A stretch of DNA of 54,305 nucleotides, from NCBI GenBank assembly GCA_021787595.1, contig JAJYLQ010000024.1, positions 1 to 54,305 on the forward strand. Reading direction: 5' to 3'. A model generated the notes under the pieces. That model was not told where the DNA came from. It ran no database searches and worked only from the letters and a program-made list of their open reading frames with translations. This DNA is from Chloroflexota bacterium. Lineage in GTDB: Bacteria; Chloroflexota; Anaerolineae; Anaerolineales; Villigracilaceae. The stretch's first letter is position 1. Every line of letters begins with the position of its first letter. The translations under genes were made by a program, and so were the position numbers. Positions 20,254 through 23,710 of this stretch are shown one piece after another.

Positions 20254-20282
20254 TTGACTTCATCTATCGGCGGGAGTATAAA
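20254..20282 (+). promoter_or_regulatory. Promoter of the metal-transport operon leader
   Basis: TTGACT (20254-20259) and TATAAA (20277-20282) are 17 bases apart, a near-consensus sigma-70-type promoter. Transcription from about 20289 would give a leader of about 264 nt before the first large gene. A small hairpin (TGCGCG/CGCGCA, 20299-20315) follows. The gap 20055-20253 holds only degenerate repeat-like sequence. Confidence 0.65.
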
Positions 20283-20337
20283 CGCGATGATAATTATGTG
20301 CGCGCATTCCGCGCAATCTGAAAAGGAGGTGGTCGTT

Positions 20338-20469
20338 ATGGACGCCGACGGAAGTAAGTCGAGCGATGATTCTATTCCACTTGGATTCTCCGAGCCGCGA
20401 TTGGTTTTGGATGATGGGTTACGCGTCCGTTTCTGCGATCACCTGCGCAGTTCCCTGTTTTGCAGATAG
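20338..20469 (+). CDS. 43-residue leader peptide upstream of the Mg/Mn-type transporter
   Basis: ATG 20338 is preceded by an almost perfect Shine-Dalgarno AAAGGAGGT at 7-base spacing, the strongest in this part of the window. The peptide is acidic at its start (MDADGSKSSDDSIP) and Arg/Cys-rich at its end. It resembles no enzyme and has no membrane segment. Its position between a good promoter and an intrinsic terminator, 84 bases before the transporter gate gene, is that of a regulatory leader peptide. Known Mg2+ leaders such as MgtL begin with acidic/proline codons that destabilise ribosomes when Mg2+ is low; the first 14 codons here have that character. Function is inferred. Confidence 0.6.
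   Translation: MDADGSKSSDDSIPLGFSEPRLVLDDGLRVRFCDHLRSSLFCR
20384..20393 (+). promoter_or_regulatory. Candidate antiterminator strand inside the leader ORF
   Basis: GATTCTCCGA, covering codons 16-19 of the leader peptide, is perfectly complementary over 10 bases to TCGGAGAATC (20507-20516). That target is the inner half of the 5' arm and loop of the downstream terminator. Pairing would break the terminator stem. A ribosome sitting on these codons would prevent it. No folding program was run. Confidence 0.5.
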
Positions 20470-20500
20470 ATCGAACGCGTCGTCTGTCCCCGGCCAATTG

Positions 20501-20537
20501 CCACCTTCGGAGAATCGTCGAAGGTGGTTTTATTTTC
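20501..20537 (+). terminator. Intrinsic terminator in the transporter leader
   Basis: CCACCTTCG (20501-20509) and CGAAGGTGG (20519-20527) form a perfect 9-bp stem with a 9-base loop, followed by TTTTATTTTC. It lies upstream of, not after, the gate gene and 31 bases after the leader ORF, so it is placed for attenuation. Confidence 0.85.
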
Positions 20538-20552
20538 TTAATGGAGGTTCAC

Positions 20553-21818
20553 ATGGCTTTTGTCAGCGAATTGGCTGGGCGCCCGGTGACAGATTACGAT
20601 GGCACGCCGGTTGGCGTTGTAAAAGACCTGGTGGCGCGGCAATACAAGGAATTTTCGCATCCCATCGTGGACGCGATCGTCGTGAAAACCGGGAAGGGGG
20701 AGCGCACCTTCCCGTATGCCGATTTGGCGGCGTTGTTATCCGCAGCGATTCCTTTGAAGCGCCCTGCGGATGAGATTCCAGGTTACGAGATTCGCGACGA
20801 TGATATCCGGCTTGTGGAGGATGTCCTCGACCAGCAGATCCTCGATATGGATGGCGGGCGTGTTGTGCGCGTGAATGACATCGAAATTTTGCGGGCCAAT
20901 GGCAACGTGGTCGTCAGCAATGTGGATATTGGCATGCTTGGGATCCTGCGCCGGCTTGGGCTCGAAAAGCCGGGGCGCTGGGCCGCCCGGCGCCTCAACG
21001 CCGACCTTTCAGCGGGTTCCATTTCGTGGGATTTCGTCGAACCCCTTTTGCGCGACAAATCCATGCGCTTGAAAGTGCCGGTCGAAAAACTAAAGGATTT
21101 GCATCCGTCCGATCTGGCTGAGATCATTTCCGATCTCAGCCGCGCCGAACACAGCGACCTGCTGCATCAACTGGATATAAAGCAACTGGCCGATACGCTC
21201 GAAGAAGTCGAACCGGATTTCCAGGCGAATCTGATCGAGCATTTTCCAGACGAAAAAGTGGCCGATGTGCTCGAAGAAATGTCGCCAGATGAAGCCACTG
21301 ACTTGTTGGCTGAACTTCCCGATGAGCGCCGTCAGGGTTTGCTCCAACTCATGGAAACTGAGGAGGCGGATGAAGTCCGGGAGTTGCTGCGCTACGACGA
21401 AGATTCAGCCGGCGGCTTGATGACGACTGAATATGTCACGGTTTCGCCCGATATGACCGCCGCGCAGGCCATCGAACACTTGCGTAAAGTCGGCGAAGAT
21501 GCCGAATTGATCTATTATGTTTATGTGACGGATCCCGAAGAACATTTATTGGGAGTCTTTTCGCTGAGCGATTTGATTGTTGCGCAGCCGGATACGCCGG
21601 TCACGGATTTTATGCACAAGCGGCTGGTCAGCGTGGAACTTGAGACCGAGCAAAATGAAATTGCCCAGATCGTTGCCAAATATAACCTGATGGCTGTGCC
21701 GGTGGTTGACGCTGATAATCGCATGCATGGAATCGTCACAGCCGATGATGCGCTCGATAAGATCCTGCCAACCGCCTGGAAGAAACGCCTTCCGCATTTC
21801 TTCGGGGCGCTCCAATGA
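20553..21818 (+). CDS. PRC-barrel / MgtE-N / CBS-pair protein, probable cytosolic gate of the transporter
   Basis: 421 residues without membrane segments. Domains in order: two PRC-barrel-like modules (about 1-80 and 85-150), an MgtE N-terminal helical superhelix (about 175-280, with repeated DLAEII, LLHQL and VADVLEEM helices) and two CBS motifs (about 285-405). In MgtE channels the same N and CBS domains bind Mg2+ in acidic pockets and close the pore when cell Mg2+ is high. Here the MgtE pore is absent. The next gene, overlapping by 4 bases (ATGA), encodes an Nramp-fold transporter, so this protein most likely gates it. GGAGG lies 5 bases before ATG 20553. Expression is probably controlled by the leader upstream. 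Confidence 0.85.
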   Translation: MAFVSELAGRPVTDYDGTPVGVVKDLVARQYKEFSHPIVDAIVVKTGKGERTFPYADLAALLSAAIPLKRPADEIPGYEIRDDDIRLVEDVLDQQILDMDGGRVVRVNDIEILRANGNVVVSNVDIGMLGILRRLGLEKPGRWAARRLNADLSAGSISWDFVEPLLRDKSMRLKVPVEKLKDLHPSDLAEIISDLSRAEHSDLLHQLDIKQLADTLEEVEPDFQANLIEHFPDEKVADVLEEMSPDEATDLLAELPDERRQGLLQLMETEEADEVRELLRYDEDSAGGLMTTEYVTVSPDMTAAQAIEHLRKVGEDAELIYYVYVTDPEEHLLGVFSLSDLIVAQPDTPVTDFMHKRLVSVELETEQNEIAQIVAKYNLMAVPVVDADNRMHGIVTADDALDKILPTAWKKRLPHFFGALQ

Positions 21819-23104
21819 GCGGCATCCTTGCCATGCTTCGCGAGAAGTGGATGACCCATCCATGGCTGCGGCAGATCATCATTTTTCTTTCGGTGTTTGG
21901 CCCGGCGACGATTGCCGCGATGGCAGATAACGACGCGGGCGGCGTTGCAACGTATTCGCTCGCCGGCGCGACGCTCGGTTATCCCATCCTGTTCTTGCTT
22001 TTCATCATCACGCCTCTGCTTGGCATCACGCAGGAAATGGGGATGCGCCTCACCCTTGTGACGCGCCGCGGCCTGGCCGATTTAATTCGTGAGAAATATG
22101 GCGTTAAGATTTCGCTGTTCATTTTCCTCGGACTGTTTATTGCAAATTTGGGAACCATCACGACCGAAGTCTCGGCCATCAAAACGGTCAGCGGGATGCT
22201 GCATATTCCGGCCGCGCCTTTCGTAATCGGGATTTTGCTCGTTGCCTTCCTGTTCATTACCAAAGGGAATTACAAACTGACGCAAACCATCATGCTGGTT
22301 GTGTCGCTGTTCTATTTGACTTACATCATCTCGGCGGTCAAGGCCAACCCGGATTGGGAAACGGCTCTGAGCAGCCTTGTTTATCCTCACGGCGTTGCCT
22401 GGACGGGCGGGTACATTCGCAGCTACCTCATTATCGGCATGGGCGTGCTGGGAACGACCATCACGCCCTGGGGACAATTTTTTATCAGCAGTTTTGCGTT
22501 CGACAAAAAGATGGATAAAGACACCCTCAGATATTCCCAGTTTGAAACATACTGGGGCGCCTTTCTCACCGACTTTTTCTCGTTCTTCATGATCGTGGCA
22601 ACGGCCTCGACGCTTTTCGTGCGCGGCATCCTCCTGACTTCGGGCGAGCAGGCGGCGGAAGCCATCCGCCCCTTCGCGGGAGATTTGGCCGGGACCCTTT
22701 TTGCGGTTGGAATTCTGGCCGCGGCTTTTATGGGACTGGTCATTGTTCCGCTCTCGACAGCGTACGCGTTCTCTGAATTTTTCGGCTTATCCGGCAGCCT
22801 CGACAGCGATTACCAGAAGAGCAAAACCTTCTATATTTTGTTCATTGTCCAATTGCTGCTGGCGGCGCTGATCGTCACGATCCCCGGAATTTCGCTTTTT
22901 GGCATCGCGATTGCATCCCAAACGCTGAACGCGATGATTCTGCCACTGGTCTTCTACTACCTGATCAAATTGACAAGCAGCGGAGAGTTGATGGGGCTTT
23001 ACGCAAATAATGGTTTCCAGAAATATTTCACGATCATTTCTTCGATTGTTATCTTCATTGCGTCGGTCCTGACGGTCGGCGCGGTTATTTTCGGATGGCA
23101 TTGA
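21815..23104 (+). CDS. Nramp-family (SLC11) divalent metal transporter with non-canonical metal site
   Basis: 429 residues and about eleven membrane spans of the LeuT/Nramp fold. The TM1 signature DPGN of Mn/Fe transporters is replaced by DNDAGG (residues 38-43). In TM6 the MPH motif is replaced by TPWGQ (217-221), so the sulfur-bearing methionine that selects against Mg/Ca is gone. Known Nramp-related magnesium transporters lack this methionine, so hydrated Mg2+ (or broad divalent) transport is the best inference. Translation is coupled to the gate protein by an ATGA overlap. The stop codon TGA (23102-23104) lies in the target duplication of the MITE that follows directly. Confidence 0.85.
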   Translation: MSGILAMLREKWMTHPWLRQIIIFLSVFGPATIAAMADNDAGGVATYSLAGATLGYPILFLLFIITPLLGITQEMGMRLTLVTRRGLADLIREKYGVKISLFIFLGLFIANLGTITTEVSAIKTVSGMLHIPAAPFVIGILLVAFLFITKGNYKLTQTIMLVVSLFYLTYIISAVKANPDWETALSSLVYPHGVAWTGGYIRSYLIIGMGVLGTTITPWGQFFISSFAFDKKMDKDTLRYSQFETYWGAFLTDFFSFFMIVATASTLFVRGILLTSGEQAAEAIRPFAGDLAGTLFAVGILAAAFMGLVIVPLSTAYAFSEFFGLSGSLDSDYQKSKTFYILFIVQLLLAALIVTIPGISLFGIAIASQTLNAMILPLVFYYLIKLTSSGELMGLYANNGFQKYFTIISSIVIFIASVLTVGAVIFGWH

Positions 23105-23190
23105 CAATACCTTCGCCAATGCGGTGTCGGGAGCGGCGAACGAACGTAGGGACAATTTGCCAAATTGTCCCACAAATGGCGAAGGTATTG
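23105..23190. mobile_element. MITE-like element, copy 2, with 5-bp target duplication
   Basis: 86 bp, same 14-bp inverted ends as copy 1 (2832-2913) and the same inner palindrome with one change; it differs mainly by an extra 4-base CGAA unit. ATTGA flanks both sides (23100-23104, 23191-23195). The left ATTGA contains the transporter's stop codon. Confidence 0.88.
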
Positions 23191-23214: not shown

Positions 23215-23243
23215 TTGCCAGCTTGCCCATTTGAGTCTATACT
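23215..23243 (+). promoter_or_regulatory. Promoter of the CBS-pair gene
   Basis: TTGCCA (23215-23220), 17 bases, TATACT (23238-23243). The same hexamers and spacing occur before the formate dehydrogenase operon (27021-27049). It shows the CBS gene can be transcribed separately from the transporter operon. Confidence 0.65.
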
Positions 23244-23275
23244 TCGCAAAACCCTCAGCCAAAGGAGATGCAGGC

Positions 23276-23710
23276 ATGATCAACGTTCGAGATTTGATCC
23301 GCAAGAAAGGCAGCCAGATCTTCAGCCTTGGCCCGGAAGCGACCGTCTTCGACGCGATGAAACTCATGGCGGATAAGAATATCGGCGCGGTCCTGGTGAT
23401 GGACGGCGGTAAAGTCGCCGGCATCCTTTCCGAACGCGACTGCGTCCGCAAGGTGGAACTGGCTGGCAAATCCGCGAAGAGTACCAAAGTCAGTGAGATC
23501 ATGACCAGCAAGGTTCTTTACATGGAAGCGAGTCAATCCGTCGAAGAATGTATGGCGGTCATGATTGACAAGAACATCCGCCATCTGCCGGTCTATGAAA
23601 ATGGAATACTGCTGGGCGTCATCTCTGTGCGCGATGCCCTGAAGGAAGTTGTGGATTACCAGAAATTCATGATCTCTCAACTGGAACATTATATTGCCGG
23701 GAGCCGCTGA
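23276..23710 (+). CDS. CBS-domain-pair protein
   Basis: 144 residues made of two CBS motifs (about 8-62 and 72-128), a stand-alone Bateman module. Such modules bind adenosyl nucleotides and regulate partner proteins; no catalytic domain is fused here. Motifs include GAVLVMDGGKVAGILSERD and IRHLPVYENGILLGVISVRD, the canonical CBS strand-helix endings. ATG 23276 has AAAGGAG 8 bases upstream; TTG at 23231 lies inside the promoter and is rejected. The amidase gene begins 2 bases after its stop. The partner is unknown; closeness to the transporter genes is suggestive only. Confidence 0.88.
   Translation: MINVRDLIRKKGSQIFSLGPEATVFDAMKLMADKNIGAVLVMDGGKVAGILSERDCVRKVELAGKSAKSTKVSEIMTSKVLYMEASQSVEECMAVMIDKNIRHLPVYENGILLGVISVRDALKEVVDYQKFMISQLEHYIAGSR

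Follow-up and report, generated by a model that had tools for sequence, protein, structure and literature searches.

A putative leader-peptide attenuator, probably sensing Mg2+ through ribosome stability, upstream of an NRMT-type transporter operon in Chloroflexota

Introduction

What governs transcription of a transporter operon whose leader holds a short ORF followed by a terminator, and to which signal would such control respond? The question is raised by a locus in a 54,305-nucleotide stretch of DNA from a Chloroflexota bacterium (the whole stretch is called the window here), which forms contig C61 in a genome of 4.08 Mb and for which the original prediction had proposed an Mg2+-responsive attenuator. 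For the leader peptide MgtL, full translation in Mg2+-replete cells is reported to expose a Rho-dependent terminator, and drop-off of the ribosome at an acidic motif (Glu2, Asp4) in low Mg2+ to allow transcription of mgtA; the EttA-sensitive signature is given as early acidic residues, adjacent or one apart (PMC11282234). High Mg2+ is reported to counteract the destabilization caused by acidic residues (PMC9718836). Here we describe the locus as a likely translation-dependent transcription attenuator that, judged from its sequence and those of its relatives, probably senses Mg2+ via ribosome stability.

Results

The leader and its operon

From 5' to 3' the locus consists of a promoter, a Shine-Dalgarno (SD) sequence, a leader ORF (uORF), a terminator, the gate gene and the Nramp-fold gene (Table 1). 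The near-consensus promoter of the original prediction is present with a 17-nt spacer; it is missing from the list of the program scan because that scan requires a T at the last -10 base. The element TTGAC...GGGAGTATA was found again in the related loci L004, L005 and L013; L003 has a variant of it with a single difference (AGGAGTATA). The 43-codon ORF and its near-perfect SD were found as predicted, and a pattern of SD, start codon and MDAD, devised post hoc and allowing up to two mismatches, matched once in the window and in none of 100 shuffles. An intrinsic terminator had been placed at 20501-20537 with a stem of 9 bp; the terminator exists, but nine pairs are too few.

Table 1 Features of the leader and operon in the window.
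Feature	Position	Strand	Basis and remarks
Promoter, TTGACT-17-TATAAA	20254..20282 (-35 20254-20259, -10 20277-20282)	+	10/12 consensus bases
Extended Shine-Dalgarno of the leader ORF, AAAGGAGGTGGTC	20322..20334	+	AGGAGG in 26/26 family leaders
Leader uORF, 43 aa, MDADGSKSSDDSIPLGFSEPRLVLDDGLRVRFCDHLRSSLFCR (peptide begins MDADGSKSSDDSIP)	20338..20469	+	Predicted ORF, SD, conservation
M-D-A-D, conserved peptide start, proposed ribosome-destabilizing motif	20338..20349	+	MDAD in 20/26 family leaders
Antiterminator strand I, inside uORF, GATTCTCCGA, codons 16-19	20384..20393	+	Complementarity, fold
Antiterminator strand II, inside uORF, GCGATTG	20397..20403	+	Fold
Partner of strand II, overlaps base of terminator 5' arm	20495..20501	+	Fold
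Intrinsic terminator	20500..20539	+	11-pair stem 20500-20528, T tract to about 20539; z -2.7
Partner of strand I, inner terminator 5' arm plus loop	20507..20516	+	Complementarity, fold
Gate gene	20553..21818	+	MgtE N domain plus two CBS stretches; Pfam
NRMT-type Nramp-fold transporter gene	21815..23104	+	Overlaps gate gene; Pfam Nramp, best solved relative 7qia

The beginning of the peptide had been described as acidic with a proline, which holds for M-D-A-D, common to the family, but not for the later acidic residues and Pro14, which are not general. By analogy with the MgtL and MgtQ studies, MDAD may destabilize the translating ribosome. Two traits of MgtL-type leaders recur: the 5' leader of what is probably a Mg2+ transporter operon contains a short ORF, and codons 2 and 4 of this ORF are acidic (D2 and D4; 23 of 26 leaders in the family). 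The window peptide contains no run of one regulatory codon, as a trp/his-type amino-acid attenuator would, and no EPDP-like proline-interspersed motif, its MDAD being without an early proline. No Rfam family matched the window even at E 10, the M-box aptamer (RF00380) included.

Compared with solved chains, the Nramp protein matched 7qia best (220 bits; next chain 70), which is the Mg2+ transporter EleNRMT (PMC8806188). Its NDAGG and GTTITPW align with NDAGG and GTTIAPW of EleNRMT, the helix-6 Ala of the latter facing a Thr; by the metal-site description of the same paper (PMC8806188), the Asp-x-x-Gly of helix 1 is present and helix 6 lacks the transition-metal methionine. A gene with an MgtE N domain adjoins the transporter gene, and this neighbourhood of NrmT, under M-box control, is already known (PMC4072509). 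Mg2+ is from these sequence features the likely rather than the proven substrate, because one NrmT, from Acidobacterium, is reported to have acted as a Mn2+ transporter (PMC4072509). The two nearest named relatives of the gate protein, both from Chloroflexi bacterium, share 91% and 81% identity with it and were the only ones given by the locus search. A perfect 14-nt inverted repeat with arms 58 nt apart lies immediately 3' of the transporter gene (23105-23190), and just 3' of the operon a stand-alone protein with two CBS stretches is encoded (23231-23710).

Conservation of the leader ORF

Searching 61 relatives with the gate protein (E 0.001) gave matches in 46, of which 12 were near full-length and the others partial. 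Of 396 class genomes, 79 gave a match at 1e-80, as did 30 of the 152 family genomes; for the phylum, searched at 1e-60, the figure was 117 of 400. Upstream regions were examined at 114 loci, 107 of which offered 350 nt or more; the family set comprises the 26 of 30 loci with this length, the other four having at most 72 nt upstream or a start inside the gene.

All 26 family loci carry a uORF behind AGGAGG. The first four residues are MDAD in 20 of them and MDAS, MDTD, MDDD, MDSD, MNAD and MSAD in one each, with GTG (15), ATG (9) or TTG (2) as start codon and all four Ala codons in use at codon 3; beyond the start the peptide varies by group (MDADGSK, MDADDHL, MDADGIPL, MDADSS...). Within the genus, the uORF, SD and terminator are all kept, as the original prediction had called for. 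Between related pairs, differences at codons 2-10 fall 17, 14 and 50 by codon position (40 synonymous and 25 non-synonymous codons), and at codons 2-15 they fall 55, 39 and 85 (70 non-synonymous vs 46 synonymous). The start-codon swaps, the variety of Ala codons and the differences in codons 2-10 form a pattern as for a translated peptide; judging from these substitutions, the start is constrained as a peptide and the remainder hardly. Net acidity in the family is +1.1 for residues 2-16 and -0.8 for residues 17-31; over all 49 leaders the values are +2.2 vs -0.6, inflated by picking for acidity.

In a blind count of ORFs of 15-60 codons in the 350-nt upstream regions, ignoring the SD, a M[DE]x[DE] uORF was found in 34 of 107 regions (23 of the 26 family regions and 11 of the 81 others), compared with 2.6 +/- 1.8 (maximum 8) in 100 shuffle sets and one on the reverse strands. 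A looser measure, at least two acidic residues among residues 2-6, gave 49 of 107 vs 19.2 +/- 3.6 in shuffles (maximum 29) and 12 on the reverse strands; upstream of 37 large ORFs of the window the two measures gave one and eight. An exact SD-MDAD pattern, whose spacing excludes the window's own leader, matched eight times in eight of the 152 family genomes, its reversed control not at all; seven matches lie at known gate-operon loci, and the eighth (L128) too is followed by a gate gene.

Outside the family, 23 leaders were chosen by eye for acidity; only the M[DE]x[DE] and looser counts are blind, and the relatives are not independent of one another. These picks are mostly acidic (MDTDSSSSHI..., MEEDDSSNEI..., MNTTTEIPDTYGSETSANTDDADP...); 18 of the 23 have a called terminator downstream, and AGGAGG is present in only one. 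No acidic uORF was seen in many other orthologues, including L036-L057 except L042 and a weak candidate, L045.

Two further leader types were observed. In 15 of 22 loci elsewhere in the phylum (L131-L134, L136, L137, L140-L142, L144, L146, L147, L149, L150 and L152), a GTG-started ORF beginning ME/MD-x-GPS (GPR in L142) precedes the gate gene; by eye, a GGACC segment there can pair with a later GGTCC, and a CCACC might mask the GAGGTGG of the gene, which would perhaps make this a form of the control that acts on translation. Six outside-family leaders (L058, L069, L084, L085, L086 and L088) are acidic and Ser-rich and end in Pro-Pro-stop, perhaps stalling the ribosome at the stop codon; uORF-terminator pairing was absent in all four of these that were tested.

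Pairing between the leader ORF and the terminator

The ten-base complementarity between strand I and its partner proved exact (10/10 pairs), and strand II adds a second helix, the antiterminator thus formed and the terminator being mutually exclusive. In the nascent RNA, pairing of the uORF with the terminator 5' arm and loop amounts to 0.71, and to 0.03 +/- 0.08 for dinucleotide-shuffled uORFs. None of the 60 shuffles reached 0.71, and we reject chance as the source of the complementarity here. In the minimum-energy prediction the entire leader adopts the antiterminator state with both helices (-86.2 kcal/mol), and it is less stable by only about 1 kcal/mol (-85.0) when the terminator is imposed. 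In an RNA ending at 20517, where the 3' arm of the terminator is not yet made, the antiterminator has a probability of 0.998.

A whole leader that folds this well in the antiterminator state might also be an RNA-only switch built on an unknown aptamer, with the uORF incidental or merely overlapping. We consider this most improbable, since the fold has a z of only -1.7, 12 of 200 shuffles being equally or more stable, the window has no Rfam match, and among relatives the nucleotides diverge while start, SD and MDAD persist.

The effect of translation was modelled by equilibrium folding with a ribosome blocking 31 nt. Without a ribosome the window leader is undecided (terminator 0.47 vs antiterminator 0.52). 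With the ribosome at codons 1 and 3 the antiterminator is predicted at 0.95 and 0.81, at codons 9-27 the terminator at 0.91 or more, and at the end of the ORF (codons 43-44) the terminator at 0.97-0.99, with mixed values at codons 5-7 and 29-39.

For the comparison across leaders, a terminator script found none in 8 of 49 leaders (3/26 family, 5/23 others), and implausible hairpins for L058, L108 and L113 were dropped, leaving 38 (21 family, 17 others). Pairing exceeded that of shuffled uORFs (p 0.05) in 12 of these, namely in 11 of the 21 family leaders and one of the 17 others, with a combined p of 2e-7 over non-independent sequences; L005, of the same genus as the window, reached only p 0.13. 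In the six closest sequences the predicted helix I persists with 8 to 10 of its 10 pairs and an invariant core of six, and CTCCGA keeps a constant distance from the start codon in all six despite differing peptides. Compensatory changes, which the original prediction had asked for in the 10-bp pairing, are scarce: helix II carries a single two-sided one (T-A to C-G) beside several wobbles, its last two pairs are standard in only three of the six, and one such change in six sequences is thin covariation.

In the ribosome model, the mean terminator fraction over 23 leaders is 0.79 without a ribosome, 0.56 with the ribosome at the start codon, 0.73 at codon 4, 0.99 at codon 16 and 0.79 at the stop. 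Nine of the 23 show no equilibrium switch (L042, L109, L111, L119, L121, L012, L106, L009 and L013). L003, of the same genus, runs opposite to the scheme (terminator 0.05 without a ribosome, 0.93 at the start, 0.98 at codon 4 and 0.61 at the stop), L007 remains antiterminated with the ribosome at the stop (terminator 0.00), and L107 loses its terminator only there (0.03). The model over leaders is therefore mixed, with contrary cases, and either kinetics must matter, the antiterminator being made first, or some leaders work otherwise.

The nine leaders in which the predicted terminator dominates at every ribosome position tested would fit a leader that is translated but unregulated, its constitutive terminator merely lowering expression. 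For the locus at hand we regard this as improbable, since in 11 of 21 family leaders the uORF pairs with the terminator more strongly than its shuffled versions do, and CTCCGA lies at a fixed distance from the start codon throughout the six closest sequences. That a real and conserved leader-peptide attenuator is present appears, from the comparative data, very likely. The mechanism as first proposed is partly supported: the uORF frame and pairing are kept in close relatives, although L003 stands against it in the ribosome model.

M-box riboswitches in relatives

An M-box lies upstream of the uORF, within 1.5 kb, in 18 of the 26 family loci by Rfam, namely L006, L007, L008, L012 and 14 of 17 further loci; within the same distance none was found in L002-L005, L010, L103, L104 and L121. 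The window's genus, on its four loci, lacks it and has the leader alone. Between M-box and uORF a terminator was found in 9 of the 18 by a crude script, whose anchor was missing in L006, L007, L008, L042 and L117, and in three more (L007, L008 and L042) on inspection. The converse arrangement, an M-box and the same gate gene with no acidic leader seen, occurs in L011 and in 3 of 20 class loci examined (L041, L054 and L056). In the window's genome a single M-box was matched, which lies on a different contig (G000:C10:37622-37792; L061) and precedes an ORF, 855 aa or longer, that we take, from its DKTGT motif, to resemble a P-type ATPase. In seven loci (L006, L105-L109 and L111) a tRNA gene precedes the M-box on the same strand.

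The M-boxes bear on the nature of the signal. An attenuator of the same layout could respond to another input (tRNA or ATP supply, EF-P or EttA activity, Mn2+) or act by arrest instead of drop-off. Such inputs have precedents in the Salmonella mgtM and mgtP leaders, which respond to ATP and charged tRNA-Pro (PMC8092293), and in the Acidobacterium NrmT that behaved as a Mn2+ transporter (PMC4072509); the Thr of the window transporter at the helix-6 Ala of EleNRMT, and the 6 of 23 outside-family leaders whose Pro-Pro-stop end suggests stalling, point the same way. We nevertheless find another input rather unlikely here, as the window peptide has no run of one regulatory codon, the family leaders have mainly MDAD in common, Pro-Pro-stop ends none of them, and 18 of 26 family loci carry an upstream M-box. 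Sensing of Mg2+ is independently supported by the M-boxes, the EleNRMT-like transporter and the acidic residues at the positions of Glu2 and Asp4 in MgtL.

Discussion

We infer translation of the uORF, ribosome drop-off, a response to Mg2+ and the direction of control as follows. With sufficient Mg2+, the ribosome would clear the early Asp residues and cover 20384-20403, so that the antiterminator would be blocked and transcription would end at the terminator. At low Mg2+ it would be lost at the acidic MDAD start, the strand in the uORF could pair with the 5' arm of the terminator before the 3' arm is synthesized, and the polymerase would read into the gate and NRMT genes. Overall, candidate Mg2+ sensing through ribosome drop-off is the best mechanism for this leader, and we hold it to be reasonably probable.

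The original prediction knew of no such case with an Nramp-fold transporter. Control of Nramp-type transporters by Mg2+ riboswitches is already described (PMC4072509), and the novelty therefore lies in the leader peptide, not in a regulated Nramp; among the matches listed from the open-licence literature, as titles and beginnings of abstracts, no NRMT operon with a leader peptide was described, nor any leader peptide from Chloroflexi. More tentatively, the phylum may have evolved, independently of enterobacteria, MDAD nascent-chain sensors of Mg2+ that gate NRMT operons via an intrinsic terminator, with many species stacking them behind an M-box so that free Mg2+, read by the aptamer, and ribosome stability, read by the leader, would both have to report shortage before the importer is produced. 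If so, ribosome instability would have been adopted as a magnesium gauge at least twice, with the same two early positions acidic and with a second origin in a phylum far from enterobacteria, and a version of the MgtL switch would exist that is built on an intrinsic terminator. The natural series of M-box alone, M-box plus leader and leader alone would make it testable why a transcript has two Mg2+ sensors.

Among known systems, M-box (RF00380) NrmT operons are of the same kind, with an MgtE-N gene, an Nramp-type transporter and Mg2+ control (PMC4072509), but the window has no aptamer, and in 18 of 26 family loci the uORF forms a second module downstream of the M-box. Mycobacterium tuberculosis pe20 resembles these family loci in having an M-box and then a conserved uORF; there, however, the switch controls the uORF itself and termination is Rho-dependent, and neither an acidic start nor an intrinsic terminator is mentioned in the available part of that source (PMC12810186). 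MgtQ of Salmonella mgtCB, whose Asp2 and Glu5 are proposed to destabilize the ribosome and raise the Mg2+ transporter, shares early acidic codons and the kind of target with the window leader, but has 8 codons, is intergenic and acts on mgtB translation (PMC8092293).

The closest comparison is with E. coli MgtL of the enterobacterial mgtA, which is likewise a short leader ORF with acidic residues 2 and 4 and a Mg2+ transporter, a probable one in the window, downstream, and in which full translation favours termination, as would be expected here. The M-D-A-D of the window fits the EttA-sensitive signature (PMC11282234); two Asp residues give a weaker signal than the D/E runs that most studies have used, and the MgtL prolines are absent. 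MgtL works through a Rho-dependent terminator (PMC11282234); in the window an intrinsic terminator stands in this place, with the antiterminator strand in the uORF. The window leader lacks EPDP, is unrelated in sequence and belongs to a different phylum, the nearest named relatives being Chloroflexi. Most likely, the leader in the window arose by convergence as an analogue of MgtL that employs an intrinsic terminator.
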